From Actinomycetota bacterium (GTDB taxonomy: Bacteria > Actinomycetota > UBA4738 > HRBIN12), in NCBI GenBank assembly GCA_026003015.1, contig BPGL01000002.1, forward strand, positions 248,001 to 312,000: a stretch of 64,000 nucleotides of DNA, in the 5' to 3' direction. Positions 3,036 through 8,735 of this stretch are shown piece by piece (the stretch's first letter is position 1; every line of letters begins with the position of its first letter). The translations under genes and the position numbers were made by a program. The notes under the pieces are model-generated. The model was not told the origin of the DNA. It did not search any database and saw nothing but the letters and a program-made list of their open reading frames with translations.

Positions 3036-3530
3036 TCAAGGGCCGAAGGGCCCGAGGATCGCCCGAAGGTGCTCGAGGACCTCCTCGGGCGTCTCCGCCC
3101 GAACGATCGGGTCGCGGGCGAGGTCGTCGCGACCGAGCTCCCAGGTCCCCAGGCCGATCACGGGCGTGCCCATCTTCAGGGCGAGGGCGATCTCCGACAG
3201 CGTCCCGTACTCGCCCCCGACCGCGACGACGGCGTCGGCGCTGCGGGCGACGATCGCGTTGCGCGCCTCGCCGAACCCCGTCGCGATCGCCACGGTGAGG
3301 TGGGGGCTCGCACCGGATCGATCCTCGCCGGGCAAGATCCCGACGCACACGCCGCCGCCGGCCTCCACCCCCCGCGCCGCGGCGTCCATCACCCCGCCGA
3401 GTCCTCCGCAGACCACCACGCAGCCCGCCTCGGCCAGCAACCGCCCCAGGCGCTCGGCGGTGGCGACCTCCCACTCGGTCGCCGCGCTCGCGCCGATCAC
3501 CGCGACGTAGGGCGCACCGGTCGCGCTCAC
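3036..3530 (-). CDS. TIGR00725/LOG-like Rossmann-fold protein
   Basis: YVAVIGAS...GRLLAEAGCVVVCGGLGGVMDAAARGVEAGGG...GGEYGTLSEIALALKMGTPVIGL; GTG start overlaps the stop of the downstream helicase gene. Confidence 0.75.
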   Translation of the reverse strand: MSATGAPYVAVIGASAATEWEVATAERLGRLLAEAGCVVVCGGLGGVMDAAARGVEAGGGVCVGILPGEDRSGASPHLTVAIATGFGEARNAIVARSADAVVAVGGEYGTLSEIALALKMGTPVIGLGTWELGRDDLARDPIVRAETPEEVLEHLRAILGPFGP

Positions 3531-5794
3531 GGGTGGAGTATCGCAGCGGCGAGCTGCGTCGCGCCCCGCTTGTCCAGCGGCTCGTTGCCGTTTCCGCACT
3601 TGGGGGACTGCACGCAGGAGGGGCATCCGCTCGGGCATCCGCAGGCGCGCAGGCGCCCGTGCGTCGCGGCGAGCCAACGGCGTACGGACCGGAACCCGCG
3701 CTCGGCCACGCCCACGCCCCCCGGGTAGCCGTCGTAGACGAGGATCGTCGTGGCGCCGGTGTCCGGATGCAGGGGGGTCGAGACCCCGCCGACGTCCCAG
3801 CGGTCGCAGGTCGCGATGAGCGGAAGCAGCCCGATCGCGCAGTGCTCGACCGCGTGGATCGCCCCGGGCAGGCGGGGAGCGGCGAGCTCCGCGGCGTCGG
3901 CCACCTCCTCGGGGATCGTCCACCACACGGCCCGGGTCGGCAGCGTGATCGGGGGCAGGTCGAGCGGCACCTCCTCGATCACCTCGCCGGTCGCGATCAG
4001 GCGCTTCACGTAGCTCGTCACGCGGTCGGTGACGCGTACCTCGCCGAACCACGTCCCGGTCGGACCGAGGGCCGAGGATCGGTCAAGGACCTTGACGATC
4101 TCGACGTCGGTCACGTCGCGGGCCTGCGTCGTGAAGTCCGGGTCGGCCTCCTCGACGAGCGCCACCCGGTCGACGAGGTCGAGCCGACGGACGACGAACG
4201 GGTCCCCTTGGTGGAGGTAGACCGCGCCGGGGTGGAGCGTGCCGAAGGCCCGCCGCTCGTCGGCGGTGCCGAGGAGCTCCCCGGTGTCGGCGCGCACGAT
4301 CCGGTAGACGGGGCCCGCGCCCGCCCGCAGGTCGATCGCGCGGTGGGGCGGCTCGCGGCCGGCGTCGTGCCGACGATCTCCGCGGCGCCGGACGAGCCCG
4401 GCCTCCTCGAGCCGTTCGAGCCCGCGCACGGCTTCCTCCCCGAAGAACCGGCGGGCCTCGTGCTCGTCGAGCGGTCGCTCGCGGGCCGCGCAGCGCAGGT
4501 GAGGGTCGAGCACCGCCGGGTTCTCGGGGTCGATCACGGCCGCTTCGGCCGGCTCGTCGAACAGCGCCGCGGGGTTGGACACGAGGTATTGGTCGAGGGG
4601 GTCGTCTTGGGCGACCAGCACCGTGAGGGCCCCTTCGGCCCGTCGTCCCGCGCGGCCGGCCTGCTGCCACATCGACGCGCGGGTACCCGGGTAGCCGGTG
4701 AGCACGGCGGCGTCGAGTCCGCCGATATCGATGCCGAGCTCCAGGGCGCTCGTGGCCGCGACGGCGACGAGGTCCCCGGAGCGCAGCCCCTGCTCGAGCC
4801 GACGCCGATCCTCCGGCAGGTAGCCGGCGCGATAGGCCTTGATCCGCTCCCGCGCCGACGGTTCGACCTCGCGGCGGGCGAAGGTCGCCAGCAGCTCCAC
4901 CGCGCGGCGCGATCGCGCGAACGCGATCGAGCGCACGCCTTCCCGGACGAGCCGACCGACGAGCCATGCCGACTCGGCCAGGGCCGAGCGCCGCGTGCCG
5001 GCCTCCTCGTCGGTCACCGGGGGGCTCCAGAGCACGAACCGTCGCTCACCCCGCGGCGAGGTGTCCTCGACGATCGGCTCGACCGATACACCGGTGAGGC
5101 GCTCGGCGTGTTCGGCGGGGTTGCCGATCGTCGCGCTCGCCAGGCACCAGCGAGGCTCGGCGCCGAGGTCCGCGGCCAGCCGACGGAGCCGGCGCAGGGC
5201 GAGCGCCACGTGGGAGCCGAACACCCCCCGCAGCACGTGGGCCTCGTCGACGACGACGAGCGCGAGCCGGCGCAAGAACCCCGTCCACCGGGTGTGATCG
5301 GCGAGGATCGACAGGTGGAGCATGTCGGGGTTCGTGCACACGAGGTTCGCCCGACGGCGGATCAGCGGGCGCTCCGCGGCCGGGGTGTCTCCGTCGTACA
5401 CGGCCGCCCGGATCTCGGGGATGCGAAGCGCCCGAACGCCCTGGAGCTGGTCGCGGGCGAGCGCCTTCGTCGGGAAGACGAACAGCGCCGTCGTCGCGGG
5501 GTCGCGGAGCGCGAGCTCGGCGAACGTGAGGTCGTAGACGAGGGACTTCCCGCTTGCCGTCCCGGTCGCGAGCACCACGTTGCGCCCCGCGCGAAGCATC
5601 TGCAGCCCGACCGCCTGGTGCGGGTAGAGGCCGTCGACGCCGAGCAGCCGCAGCCGGGCCGGGAGCGGGTCGGGGAGGTCGGACGGGATCGGGGCGAGGG
5701 AGGGCCGCCGCGCGGGCAGCCGACGGACGTGGGCGATGCTCGCGGCGCGGTCGGGGTCGTCCGCGAGCCCCTCGAGGAACCCCTCGACGTCCAC
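3527..5794 (-). CDS. DEAD/DEAH-box helicase with C-terminal DUF1998/MZB cysteine cluster (MrfA/YprA-like)
   Basis: LATGTASGKSLVYDL (Walker A), VVVDEAH (Walker B), LASATI, QAGRAGRR and C-terminal CGCPSGCPSCVQSPKCGNGNEPLDK. Confidence 0.9.
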   Translation of the reverse strand: MDVEGFLEGLADDPDRAASIAHVRRLPARRPSLAPIPSDLPDPLPARLRLLGVDGLYPHQAVGLQMLRAGRNVVLATGTASGKSLVYDLTFAELALRDPATTALFVFPTKALARDQLQGVRALRIPEIRAAVYDGDTPAAERPLIRRRANLVCTNPDMLHLSILADHTRWTGFLRRLALVVVDEAHVLRGVFGSHVALALRRLRRLAADLGAEPRWCLASATIGNPAEHAERLTGVSVEPIVEDTSPRGERRFVLWSPPVTDEEAGTRRSALAESAWLVGRLVREGVRSIAFARSRRAVELLATFARREVEPSARERIKAYRAGYLPEDRRRLEQGLRSGDLVAVAATSALELGIDIGGLDAAVLTGYPGTRASMWQQAGRAGRRAEGALTVLVAQDDPLDQYLVSNPAALFDEPAEAAVIDPENPAVLDPHLRCAARERPLDEHEARRFFGEEAVRGLERLEEAGLVRRRGDRRHDAGREPPHRAIDLRAGAGPVYRIVRADTGELLGTADERRAFGTLHPGAVYLHQGDPFVVRRLDLVDRVALVEEADPDFTTQARDVTDVEIVKVLDRSSALGPTGTWFGEVRVTDRVTSYVKRLIATGEVIEEVPLDLPPITLPTRAVWWTIPEEVADAAELAAPRLPGAIHAVEHCAIGLLPLIATCDRWDVGGVSTPLHPDTGATTILVYDGYPGGVGVAERGFRSVRRWLAATHGRLRACGCPSGCPSCVQSPKCGNGNEPLDKRGATQLAAAILHP

Positions 5795-5802
5795 GGGGGC
5801 GG

Positions 5803-6648
5803 CTAGCGACCGATGAGGGTCGCCGGCGCCTTGCGCACGACGCGGTCGCTCACCGAGCCGAGGACCTTGGACGCGAACCGTCCGAGCCCGCGAGCCCCGA
5901 CGACGACGAGATCGACCCCGCCCGCACGAGCCGCGTCGAGGACGGTCGTCGAGGGCCGTCCCCGCTCGACGGCCGTTTCGACCACGAACCCCGCCTCCCG
6001 CAGCTTGGCCGCCGCCTCCTCGGCGTGGCGGGTGGCCGCCTCGACGTCGCCCGGCCGCTCCGGGCCGCCCTCGGCACCGTGCGGCAGGGACACGGGCTTG
6101 GCGACCGACAGCGCCCGGACCTCGCAGCGCGAGGCGTCGGCGAACGCGGCGAACACGTCGACGGCCCGGGCGGCGCCCGGCGAGCCGTCGGTGGCGACCA
6201 ACGCCCGGACGACGCGGTCCGGTGGCGGCGCCGTGTGGACGACGAGGACCGGTCGGCGTGAGGCGTGGACGATCGATCCGCTGACGCTGCCCAGCACGAC
6301 GACGTCGACCCAGCGCTCCTTGGCGGTGCCGACGACGATCAGGCCGTGGTCCTCCTGCTCGGCGACCGCGAGGATCTCGGTCGCCTCGTCGCCCTCGACG
6401 ACGCGTCCCTCGCTCTCGAGCGAGGCCGCCCGCAGCGTCGTAAGCGCCTCCGCGACGGCCCGCTCGGCGTGGGCGCGACCGGCCTCGGCGGAGTAGTGCC
6501 CCAGCTGGGCGGCCTCGCGCAGCGCGACCTCGAAGCTGTTCACCGACAAGACGTCGATCCGACAGCGGGCAGGGTCGGCGAGCCGCGCGAGCAGCTCGGT
6601 CGCGTGCCGCGAGGGCTCGTCGCCGTCGGTCGCGAGCAGGATCCTCAC
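5803..6648 (-). CDS. Tandem universal stress protein (two UspA domains)
   Basis: MRILLATDGDEPSRHATELL...GLIVVGTAKERWVDVVVLGSVSGSIVHASRRPVLVV repeated as DLVVVGARGLGRFASKVLGSVSDRVVRKAPATLI. Confidence 0.9.
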   Translation of the reverse strand: MRILLATDGDEPSRHATELLARLADPARCRIDVLSVNSFEVALREAAQLGHYSAEAGRAHAERAVAEALTTLRAASLESEGRVVEGDEATEILAVAEQEDHGLIVVGTAKERWVDVVVLGSVSGSIVHASRRPVLVVHTAPPPDRVVRALVATDGSPGAARAVDVFAAFADASRCEVRALSVAKPVSLPHGAEGGPERPGDVEAATRHAEEAAAKLREAGFVVETAVERGRPSTTVLDAARAGGVDLVVVGARGLGRFASKVLGSVSDRVVRKAPATLIGR

Positions 6649-7592
6649 GAGGCAGCTCCATCGGTCGGCTGGGCGGGCGTCGCCGCCGCGGTCTTGCGCA
6701 GCGAGGCGAGGATCGCCACGGCGATCACGACGGCGATGAACCCGAGCGACGCCCAGACCGGGATCTTGTACACGGAGCTCAGGAGCATCTTGATGCCGAC
6801 GTAGACGAGGACGATGGCGAGCCCCGGCTTGAGGTAGACGAACCGCCCGATCATCCCGGCGAGCATGAAGTACAGCGCCCTCAGGCCGAGGATCGCGAAC
6901 GCGTTCGACGTGAAGACGATGAACGGGTCGCGCGTGACCGCGAAGATGGCCGGGATCGAGTCGACGGCGAACAAGATGTCGGTCGTCTCCACGAGCACGA
7001 GGACGGCGAGCAGCGGCGTCGCCATCCGACGCCCGGCCTCGCGGATCCAGAACCGCTGCCCGCGGTAATCGGCCGTGATCGGCACGAACCGCCGGAAGAC
7101 CTTCAGGACCGGGTTGCGCTCCGGGTGGACCTCCTCGTCGCGGTGCATCGCCATCCGGATCCCCGTGAGCACGAGGAAGCCGCCGAAGACGTAGACGGTC
7201 CAGTGGAACCGCTCCAACAGCGCGGCGCCGCCGGCGATGAACGCGGCGCGGAACACGAGCGCCCCGACGATGCCCCAGAACAGCACCCGGTGCTGGTACT
7301 TCGCCGGGACCCCGAAGTAGCTGAAGATCAGCGCGAAGACGAAGATGTTGTCGACCGACAGGCTCTTCTCGATCAGGTAGCCGGCGAGGTACTCGCCGCC
7401 GGCCTGGTGGCCCATCCAGATCCAGACCACGGCGCCGAACGTGAGGCCGAGGGCGATCCAGAAGACGCTGAACAGCGTCGCCTCGCGGAACGAGACCTCG
7501 TGGGCCTCGCGGTGGAACACGAACAGGTCGAGCGCGAGCAGGAACAAGATCAGGGCGACGAAGCCCGCCCAGGTCAGGATCCCGTGCTCCAC
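6645..7592 (-). CDS. TerC/Alx family integral membrane protein
   Basis: 315 aa; LDLFVFHREAHEVSFREA...LAGYLIEKSLSVDNIFVFALIFSYFGVP...LVLVETTDILFAVDSIPAIFAVTRDPFIVFTSN. Confidence 0.92.
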   Translation of the reverse strand: MEHGILTWAGFVALILFLLALDLFVFHREAHEVSFREATLFSVFWIALGLTFGAVVWIWMGHQAGGEYLAGYLIEKSLSVDNIFVFALIFSYFGVPAKYQHRVLFWGIVGALVFRAAFIAGGAALLERFHWTVYVFGGFLVLTGIRMAMHRDEEVHPERNPVLKVFRRFVPITADYRGQRFWIREAGRRMATPLLAVLVLVETTDILFAVDSIPAIFAVTRDPFIVFTSNAFAILGLRALYFMLAGMIGRFVYLKPGLAIVLVYVGIKMLLSSVYKIPVWASLGFIAVVIAVAILASLRKTAAATPAQPTDGAAS

Positions 7593-7651
7593 CGTCCTCG
7601 ATCCTCCCTCCGGTCCGCCGCCGGGCCCGGCCGTGCTCGCGCGGCGGCCGC

Positions 7652-7765
7652 GCCGAGCGGACCGAAGGTCTCTCCCGGCCGCGGTGGCGGCCGGCGTCGC
7701 CGGGCTGAGGGCCGGGCTGACGGCGACGCCCGCAGGGATACTCCCCCTCGGCTGGAGCGACTGTA
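7652..7765 (-). promoter_or_regulatory. yybP-ykoY (Mn2+) riboswitch candidate in the leader of the TerC gene
   Basis: Minus-strand leader GCCGAGGGGGAGTATCCCTGCGGGCGTCGCCGTCAGCCCGG..CCCGGCGACGCCGGCC..GGCCGGGAGAGACCTTCGGTCCGCTCGGC: GGGGAGUA loop, CGCCGUCA element, GAGACCUUCGG segment and closing GCCGAG/CTCGGC helix. Confidence 0.85.
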
Positions 7766-7802
7766 CCGCAGGCGGGTGCGAACGACGGGGTGGGGCGACG
7801 CC

Positions 7803-8735
7803 TCAGGCACCGAGCCGCGCGGCCGCCCCCGGGGCGATGTACCCATCGCGGGCCAGGTCTCGGTACAGGGCCTGCGCCGAGGGGGACAGGTTCACGATCG
7901 AGATCCCGCCCGCCGAGCCGATCGAGCCGGGGACGACGACGTTGGTCACGCGAGCGGGGTCCACGCGTGAGGCGGTGAACGCCAGACGCACGAGCTCCTC
8001 GATCGACAGGGTTGTGCGCACGTGGCGCAGGCCGGCGCCGAGCCAGGCGAACAGTCGCGTCGGGTCCTCCTCGAACTCAGCTCGGAACTGCGCCAGGGCG
8101 GCGATCATCAGGAGCCCCTGGTGCTCGGAACGCCCGAAGTCGCCGTTCGCGAGGGACTTGCGCGTGCGGGCCACCTGCAGCGCGTCGCGGCCTGCCAGGC
8201 GCTGGCGGCCGGCGGGATAGGTCGTGTCGTAGCCCACGATCGTCGTCGGCAGGTCGACCTCCAGCCCGCCGATCTCGTCGACCGCCCGCTTCAGGCCCGA
8301 GAACCCGGTCAGGGCCCAGTAGTCGAGCCGGATGCCGGTCAGCGCCTCGACCGTGCGCACCATCGCCTCCGGTCCGCCGACCGGCATCGCGGCGTTGATC
8401 TTGCCGGTTCCGCCCGTGGCGAGGGGCACCCACGCGTCGCGAGGGAACCCGAGGAGCGTCGCGCGTCCCTTGGCGGGATCGATCCCGAGGATGTGGATCG
8501 AGTCGGCGAGGCCCCGATCGACGGGCGTGCCGGCCCGTGCGTCGGACCCGAGCACGAGCACGAAGATCGGCTGGCTGCCGTCCAGGGCCGGTTCGAAGGC
8601 CGCGTGCGCGCGGCCGACGGCGAGCGCCGCACCGGCGGTGGCCGGCAGCCCCACGACCCAGCCGACCACGGTGCCGGCTCCCCAGGCCGCGAGCGCGAGG
8701 ACGGCGGCGAGCGCCCGTCGCGACGCGCGGCTCAC
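7803..8735 (-). CDS. LytR-CpsA-Psr (LCP) family protein
   Basis: FVLVLGSDAR...GLADSIHILGIDPAKGRATLLGFPRDAWVPL...GGTGKINAAMPVGGPEAMVRTVEALTGIRLDYWALTGFSGLKRAVDEIGGLEV...QVARTRK. Confidence 0.88.
   Translation of the reverse strand: MSRASRRALAAVLALAAWGAGTVVGWVVGLPATAGAALAVGRAHAAFEPALDGSQPIFVLVLGSDARAGTPVDRGLADSIHILGIDPAKGRATLLGFPRDAWVPLATGGTGKINAAMPVGGPEAMVRTVEALTGIRLDYWALTGFSGLKRAVDEIGGLEVDLPTTIVGYDTTYPAGRQRLAGRDALQVARTRKSLANGDFGRSEHQGLLMIAALAQFRAEFEEDPTRLFAWLGAGLRHVRTTLSIEELVRLAFTASRVDPARVTNVVVPGSIGSAGGISIVNLSPSAQALYRDLARDGYIAPGAAARLGA

Follow-up and report, generated by a model that had tools for sequence, protein, structure and literature searches.

A compact, GC-rich yybP-ykoY riboswitch that in all likelihood turns on translation of an actinobacterial TerC gene in response to Mn2+

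The leader of the TerC gene located in the 64,000-nucleotide stretch of DNA analysed here (the window) is, judged by comparison of sequences, a genuine member of the yybP-ykoY class in a compact, GC-rich form. In all likelihood it acts as a Mn2+-sensing riboswitch by which TerC translation is activated, probably together with that of the overlapping universal stress protein (Usp) gene. Mn2+ as the ligand, an ON direction and translational rather than transcriptional control are the most likely combination. An uncultured actinobacterial lineage thus gains a specific, testable Mn2+ response. The association of yybP-ykoY with terC is not new in the phylum, since cg2157 (terC) of Corynebacterium glutamicum was reported to have a yybP-ykoY leader (49.13 bits with an older RF00080 model) that is a transcribed 5' UTR by RNA-seq (PMC3890552). 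That leader likewise precedes an actinobacterial terC gene but belongs to another lineage. What is added here is a switch sequestering the Shine-Dalgarno (SD) sequence that is backed by covariation, and the finding that most members of the class in the phylum escape Rfam 15.

The regulated gene belongs to the TerC family (PF03741, E 8.9e-55) and begins with a GTG codon at position 7592 of the minus strand, preceded by the purine-rich SD GGAGGGAGG; the gap between it and the LytR-family gene is 210 bp. The TerC assignment, the 210-bp gap, the SD and the GTG start agree with the initial annotation, made from the sequence alone. The gene order in the window is LytR, riboswitch, TerC, Usp and MrfA-type helicase (span 3530-8732). 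The Usp gene is probably in the same operon as TerC, and translational coupling of the two genes is suggested because the TerC stop codon overlaps the Usp start codon at 6645-6648 (GTGA). The TerC and Usp genes are also adjacent in two further loci (L156 and L157). According to PMC10550928, TerC proteins may serve the metalation of exported enzymes besides export; the label "exporter" is therefore provisional for the TerC protein of the window. The coordinates of all features are collected in Table 1.

Table 1. Features of the TerC leader and its locus, numbered from the first letter of the window.
Feature	Coordinates	Strand	Remarks
-10-like element TACAGT	7760..7765	-	TANNNT clustering in leaders
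yybP-ykoY (Mn2+) riboswitch aptamer, compact, without P2	7660..7754	-	R1 73.2 bits, R2 68.9 bits
P1.1 switch helix, 5' strand CCGAGGG	7745..7751	-	Pairs with CCUUCGG 7668-7662
L1, 5' side GGAGUA	7739..7744	-	Conserved block in A1; matches the L1 conserved in E. coli alx and mntP
P1.2, 5' strand UCCC	7735..7738	-	Pairs with GGGA 7676-7673
P3, 5' strand GCGUCGCCG	7721..7729	-	Pairs with CGGCGACGC 7702-7694
L3 bulge UCAGCCC	7714..7720	-	7 nt; UCA invariant in A1
P3 apical stem GGC-CCUCA-GCC and 3' strand CGGCGACGC	7694..7713	-	Minimum-energy fold
P4 hairpin GGCCGC-CACC-GCGGCC	7677..7692	-	Minimum-energy fold
P1.2, 3' strand GGGA	7673..7676	-	Covariation in relatives
L1, 3' side GAGA	7669..7672	-	GAGA/AAGA conserved ahead of the P1.1 3' strand
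CCUUCGGUCCGC, P1.1 3' strand (7668-7662) with extension, also putative anti-SD strand	7657..7668	-	12-bp alternative with 7618-7607
GCGGACCGGAGG, putative partner of the anti-SD strand, overlaps SD	7607..7618	-	Predicted duplex -24.8 kcal/mol
SD region GGAGGGAGG	7603..7611	-	10 nt ahead of GTG; first part inside GCGGACCGGAGG
TerC family membrane protein gene, regulated gene	6645..7592	-	PF03741, E 8.9e-55
Two-domain Usp gene	5803..6648	-	PF00582, E 8.5e-44

The Rfam 15 model of the class (RF00080, 177 positions) gave no match to the window at the gathering score, no match to the 301-bp leader at E<=10 and no match anywhere in the genome of the window. Across the order, at E<=10, its matches were either short fragments or did not exceed 14 bits. 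The initial annotation had proposed an RF00080 match as a check and had stated that its absence would speak against the assignment, so that, taken formally, the outcome goes against it on its own terms. Nevertheless, RF00080 is a poor test in Actinomycetota, because it scored above its cut-off in 1 of 398 genomes, while a dedicated covariance model built in this work (R1, see below) matched 88 of them (E<=0.01). At the same E-value threshold RF00080 reached 18 of the 398 genomes, and the current Rfam model thus overlooks most class members in the phylum. The miss reflects a poor fit of the model to the GC-rich compact form; RF00080 is a detection tool, not a defining feature of the class, and the comparative evidence outweighs its silence. 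The plus strand gave a match to P10 sRNA of 18 bits (E 0.05), which was rejected because the gathering score is 37.

TerC orthologs were collected from the same family and phylum, the closest named hits being Actinomycetota MAGs, in keeping with an actinomycete genome. Many of them harbour GGGGAGUA...CGUCA...GAGACC within approximately 300 nt upstream of the gene, with helix sequences that differ. Sixteen orthologous leaders, without that of the window, were aligned (alignment A1). In A1, P1.1 was paired in 92% and P3 in 92.5%, 11 of the 17 pairs of these helices had changed on both sides, and the covariation score of 0.346 exceeded both the shuffled (0.203) and the slid controls (maximum 0.218). 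R1, the covariance model made from A1, recognised the window with 73.2 bits (E 8.5e-17 over the 64 kb; 14 bits for the runner-up), and over the 2.2-Mb genome the aptamer was the sole strong match (19.4 bits for the next). An alignment of 49 matches (A2), which was fitted to the structure and is consequently biased towards it, reached a covariation score of 0.530 (0.198 shuffled, at most 0.147 slid); 90.6% of its cells were paired, and both sides had changed in 19 of the 24 pairs. The model made from A2 without the window and without E. coli sequences (R2) matched the window with 68.9 bits (E 8.2e-16). Moreover, R2 found the E. coli alx and mntP leaders (36.0 bits, E 2.1e-7 and 31.0 bits, E 4.5e-6 respectively), which are established Mn2+ riboswitches (PMC9603457), and it recovered L127, an RF00080 member above the cut-off; alx was matched by R1 as well.

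Two readings that dispense with a regulatory RNA were weighed against these results. The missing RF00080 match, together with a leader folding energy that is not unusual compared to shuffles (z -0.58), could point to a chance structure in GC-rich DNA; this is refuted by the covariation, as the orthologous leaders carry compensatory changes, and the strong leave-out matches and the conserved position before transporter genes also contradict it, leaving it a negligible probability. The conservation might alternatively be that of a peptide, as a 90-aa ORF (7574-7846, minus strand) is open and spans the leader. Many open frames are to be expected in GC-rich DNA, though, and the loops and P4 of the relatives vary in length, not by multiples of three (91 to 111 nt), while pairing is kept; a coding feature is hardly credible.

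The motifs quoted in the initial annotation (GGGGAGUA, CGCCGUCA and GAGACCUUCGG) lie on the minus strand where it had placed them, and CGCCGUCA indeed sits within a perfect 9-bp helix, GCGUCGCCG/CGGCGACGC. Its assignment to the yybP-ykoY class upstream of TerC is backed by the orthologous leaders, by covariation and by the models that tie the window to E. coli alx and mntP. It had also staked its helices on covariance among terC leaders. Covariation was found there, but the proposed closing helix, GCCGAG/CTCGGC, has to be replaced: the sequence exists in the window and is absent from the orthologs, in which the conserved helix is the one corresponding to CCGAGGG/CCUUCGG (P1.1). The annotation was thus right on the class and wrong on one helix.

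In A2 (n=49), P1.1 was 91.7% paired, with 6 of 7 pairs changed on both sides, and P3 was 96% paired, with 7 of 10 pairs changed on both sides; the apical stem of P3 was paired in 100%. The L1 internal loop typical of the class (GGAGUA/GAGA) lies between P1.1 and P1.2 in the window. P1.2 was left out of the models; in the relatives it reads GCCC/GGGC, GUCC/GGAC, UUCC/GGAA or CCCC/GGGG, and among the 49 sequences 39 have U-A, G-C or C-G as the first pair, compared to a shuffled maximum of 29. P4 is present in the relatives with variable length (68% paired in a rough alignment). By alignment, A7718 of the L3 bulge would correspond to the adenosine that is invariant in the class and in contact with Mn2+ in crystal structures, A48 of the Xanthomonas oryzae and A41 of the Lactococcus lactis RNA (PMC6754395). 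A variant L3, UCGACA(C/U)ACUGG instead of CGUCA, was observed in the GDT1-linked loci L140, L142, L146, L147, L149 and L150, and resembles the mntP type.

The window shares with the RF00080 class P1.1, L1 (GGAGUA/GAGA), P1.2, a P3 with a 7-nt L3 starting with UCA, P4 and the position before TerC. It differs in its GC content (79%), in not being recognised by the Rfam 15 model and in the absence of P2. No consistent P2 of a four-way junction (P1.2, P2, P3 and P4) was found in the leaders; the linkers between P1.2 and CGUCA are mostly 7-14 nt long and partly belong to P3. A CCC-UGC-GGG hairpin of the window was considered as P2 and rejected, with the UCCC/GGGA pair being the covarying P1.2. P2 was not treated as defining the class because alx, an established member, also appears to be P2-less. 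The P2-less actinobacterial form could conceivably be a distinct three-way-junction sub-class with a shifted metal preference or set point, controlling membrane-stress functions (M48 and M50 proteases and Na/Ca-exchanger-type antiporters) beyond Mn2+ export; we give this proposal only a small chance.

The transcript probably starts at the 5' edge of the aptamer, a prediction made from the -10-like TACAGT at 7765-7760. Among 31 leaders, TANNNT clustered 20-27 nt upstream of AGTA/AGUA, with 16 occurrences in the best 5-nt window (shuffled mean 2.4, maximum 6).

The aptamer helix and the SD-sequestering helix are mutually exclusive, as the 3' strand of P1.1 is common to both. The predicted CCUUCGGUCCGC/GCGGACCGGAGG duplex (-24.8 kcal/mol) is the best among the relatives and beats every foreign combination tested. 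In 27 relatives (window excluded, near-duplicates removed), the duplexes between each leader's own P1.1 3' strand and SD side averaged -15.43 kcal/mol, compared to -12.34 kcal/mol after permutation, and 0 of 20,000 permutations reached the observed value, which is not a strict probability as further kinship was ignored. The result was the same with the 7-nt P1.1 strand alone (again 0 of 20,000). In the ligand-free fold of the leader the anti-SD helix had a probability of 0.996, and the fold with P1.1 forced lay 6.2 kcal/mol above the anti-SD fold; part of the SD was still paired in the P1.1-forced model, and energies are rough in such GC-rich RNA.

Under the proposed mechanism, at low Mn2+ CCUUCGGUCCGC (7668-7657) would pair with GCGGACCGGAGG (7618-7607) and bury the ribosome binding site. 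At high Mn2+, the ion would bind between L1 (GGAGUA/GAGA) and L3 (UCAGCCC, A7718), the two legs would dock and P1.1 (CCGAGGG/CCUUCGG) would be held closed. Closing of P1.1 would free the SD and switch TerC translation on. P1.1 is the switch helix stabilised by Mn2+ in the yybP-ykoY class (PMC6754395, PMC11087558), and a translational ON switch is the best model because Mn2+ has this effect in the members studied. The mntP leader of E. coli, in which Mn2+ turns on translation initiation (PMC9603457), is a class member found by R2 with the translational ON behaviour proposed here; it differs from the window in having P2 and in its target, MntP instead of TerC.

The same aptamer class might instead control transcription, by premature or Rho-dependent termination, and not ribosome access. 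In L. lactis the P1.1 3' strand partitions between the aptamer and the expression platform as proposed for the window, but the platform is an intrinsic terminator, compared to the SD in the window (PMC11087558), and in a Rubrobacter-like group (e.g. L023 and L026) the P1.1 3' strand belongs to a hairpin with a T-run behind it. No terminator-like site was found in the window leader before the start codon, the single site found being inside the coding region; the alternative hairpin of the window has no T-run, and a terminator platform was rejected for it. Furthermore, the 3' partner of the switching strand overlaps the SD and covaries. Transcriptional control is consequently unlikely here, and translational control of TerC is preferred. 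One aptamer with two expression platforms within the phylum is suggested by these comparisons. The Rubrobacter-like TerC leaders showing the same aptamer with P2 and a terminator-looking hairpin overlapping P1.1 were L023, L026, L029, L032, L040 and L043. An RNA of the same class was also observed at L151:16-109 (+), with the terminator hairpin GACCTTCGCC-TAGA-GGCGAGGGTC-TTTTT before an M48 (HtpX-like) protease gene.

Mn2+ is taken as the ligand because of the class membership and of the regulated genes. A signal other than Mn2+, either another divalent metal or pH, would be compatible with the same fold: alx is also alkali-responsive, Mn2+ binding by mntP improves at alkaline pH (PMC9603457), and a P2-less junction could shift affinity. 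The core L1 and L3 blocks are kept in the window, the invariant A included, and the regulated genes belong to Mn2+ exporter and metalation families, making a different main signal quite improbable and Mn2+ the preferred ligand. Between alx and the window, the target gene is in both cases of the TerC family and the type of L3 is alike (UCAUUAC in alx); by our reading of its sequence alx has a P1.2 (ACUU/AAGU) and no P2 either. By contrast, alx has a long P4, another downstream hairpin and the response to alkaline pH.

The yybP-ykoY class is usually found with GDT1, TerC and P-type ATPases. Local tblastn identified 22 TerC, 11 cation P-type ATPase and 6 GDT1 genes downstream of the RNA in 47 Actinomycetota loci, to which Pfam added one GDT1, two Na_Ca_ex, one M48 and one M50 protease; the set joined the best-scoring loci with 20 picked as not known TerC, so that these counts do not represent true proportions, and the distance from the RNA to the ATPase match is more than 1 kb in some cases. 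The position upstream of Mn2+ homeostasis genes, a feature of the class, is accordingly found here with TerC and in relatives with TerC, GDT1, cation P-type ATPase and Na_Ca_ex.

Three genomes of the same family (G014, G015 and G006) have the order LytR, riboswitch, Na/Ca exchanger and helicase. Compared to the window, the sensor and the flanks are kept in the corresponding loci L153, L154 and L159, while TerC and Usp are replaced by a Na/Ca-exchanger-family protein; synteny is inexact in L153, where approximately 1.2 kb separates LytR from the riboswitch. Since the transporter was exchanged under a kept sensor, the exchanger-family protein is suggested to handle Mn2+ too. At L133:19-112 (+) the RNA lies before an M50 protease gene with a CBS domain, an unusual target for the class, and at L136:15-112 (+) it precedes a gene resembling the M50 protease gene of L133.
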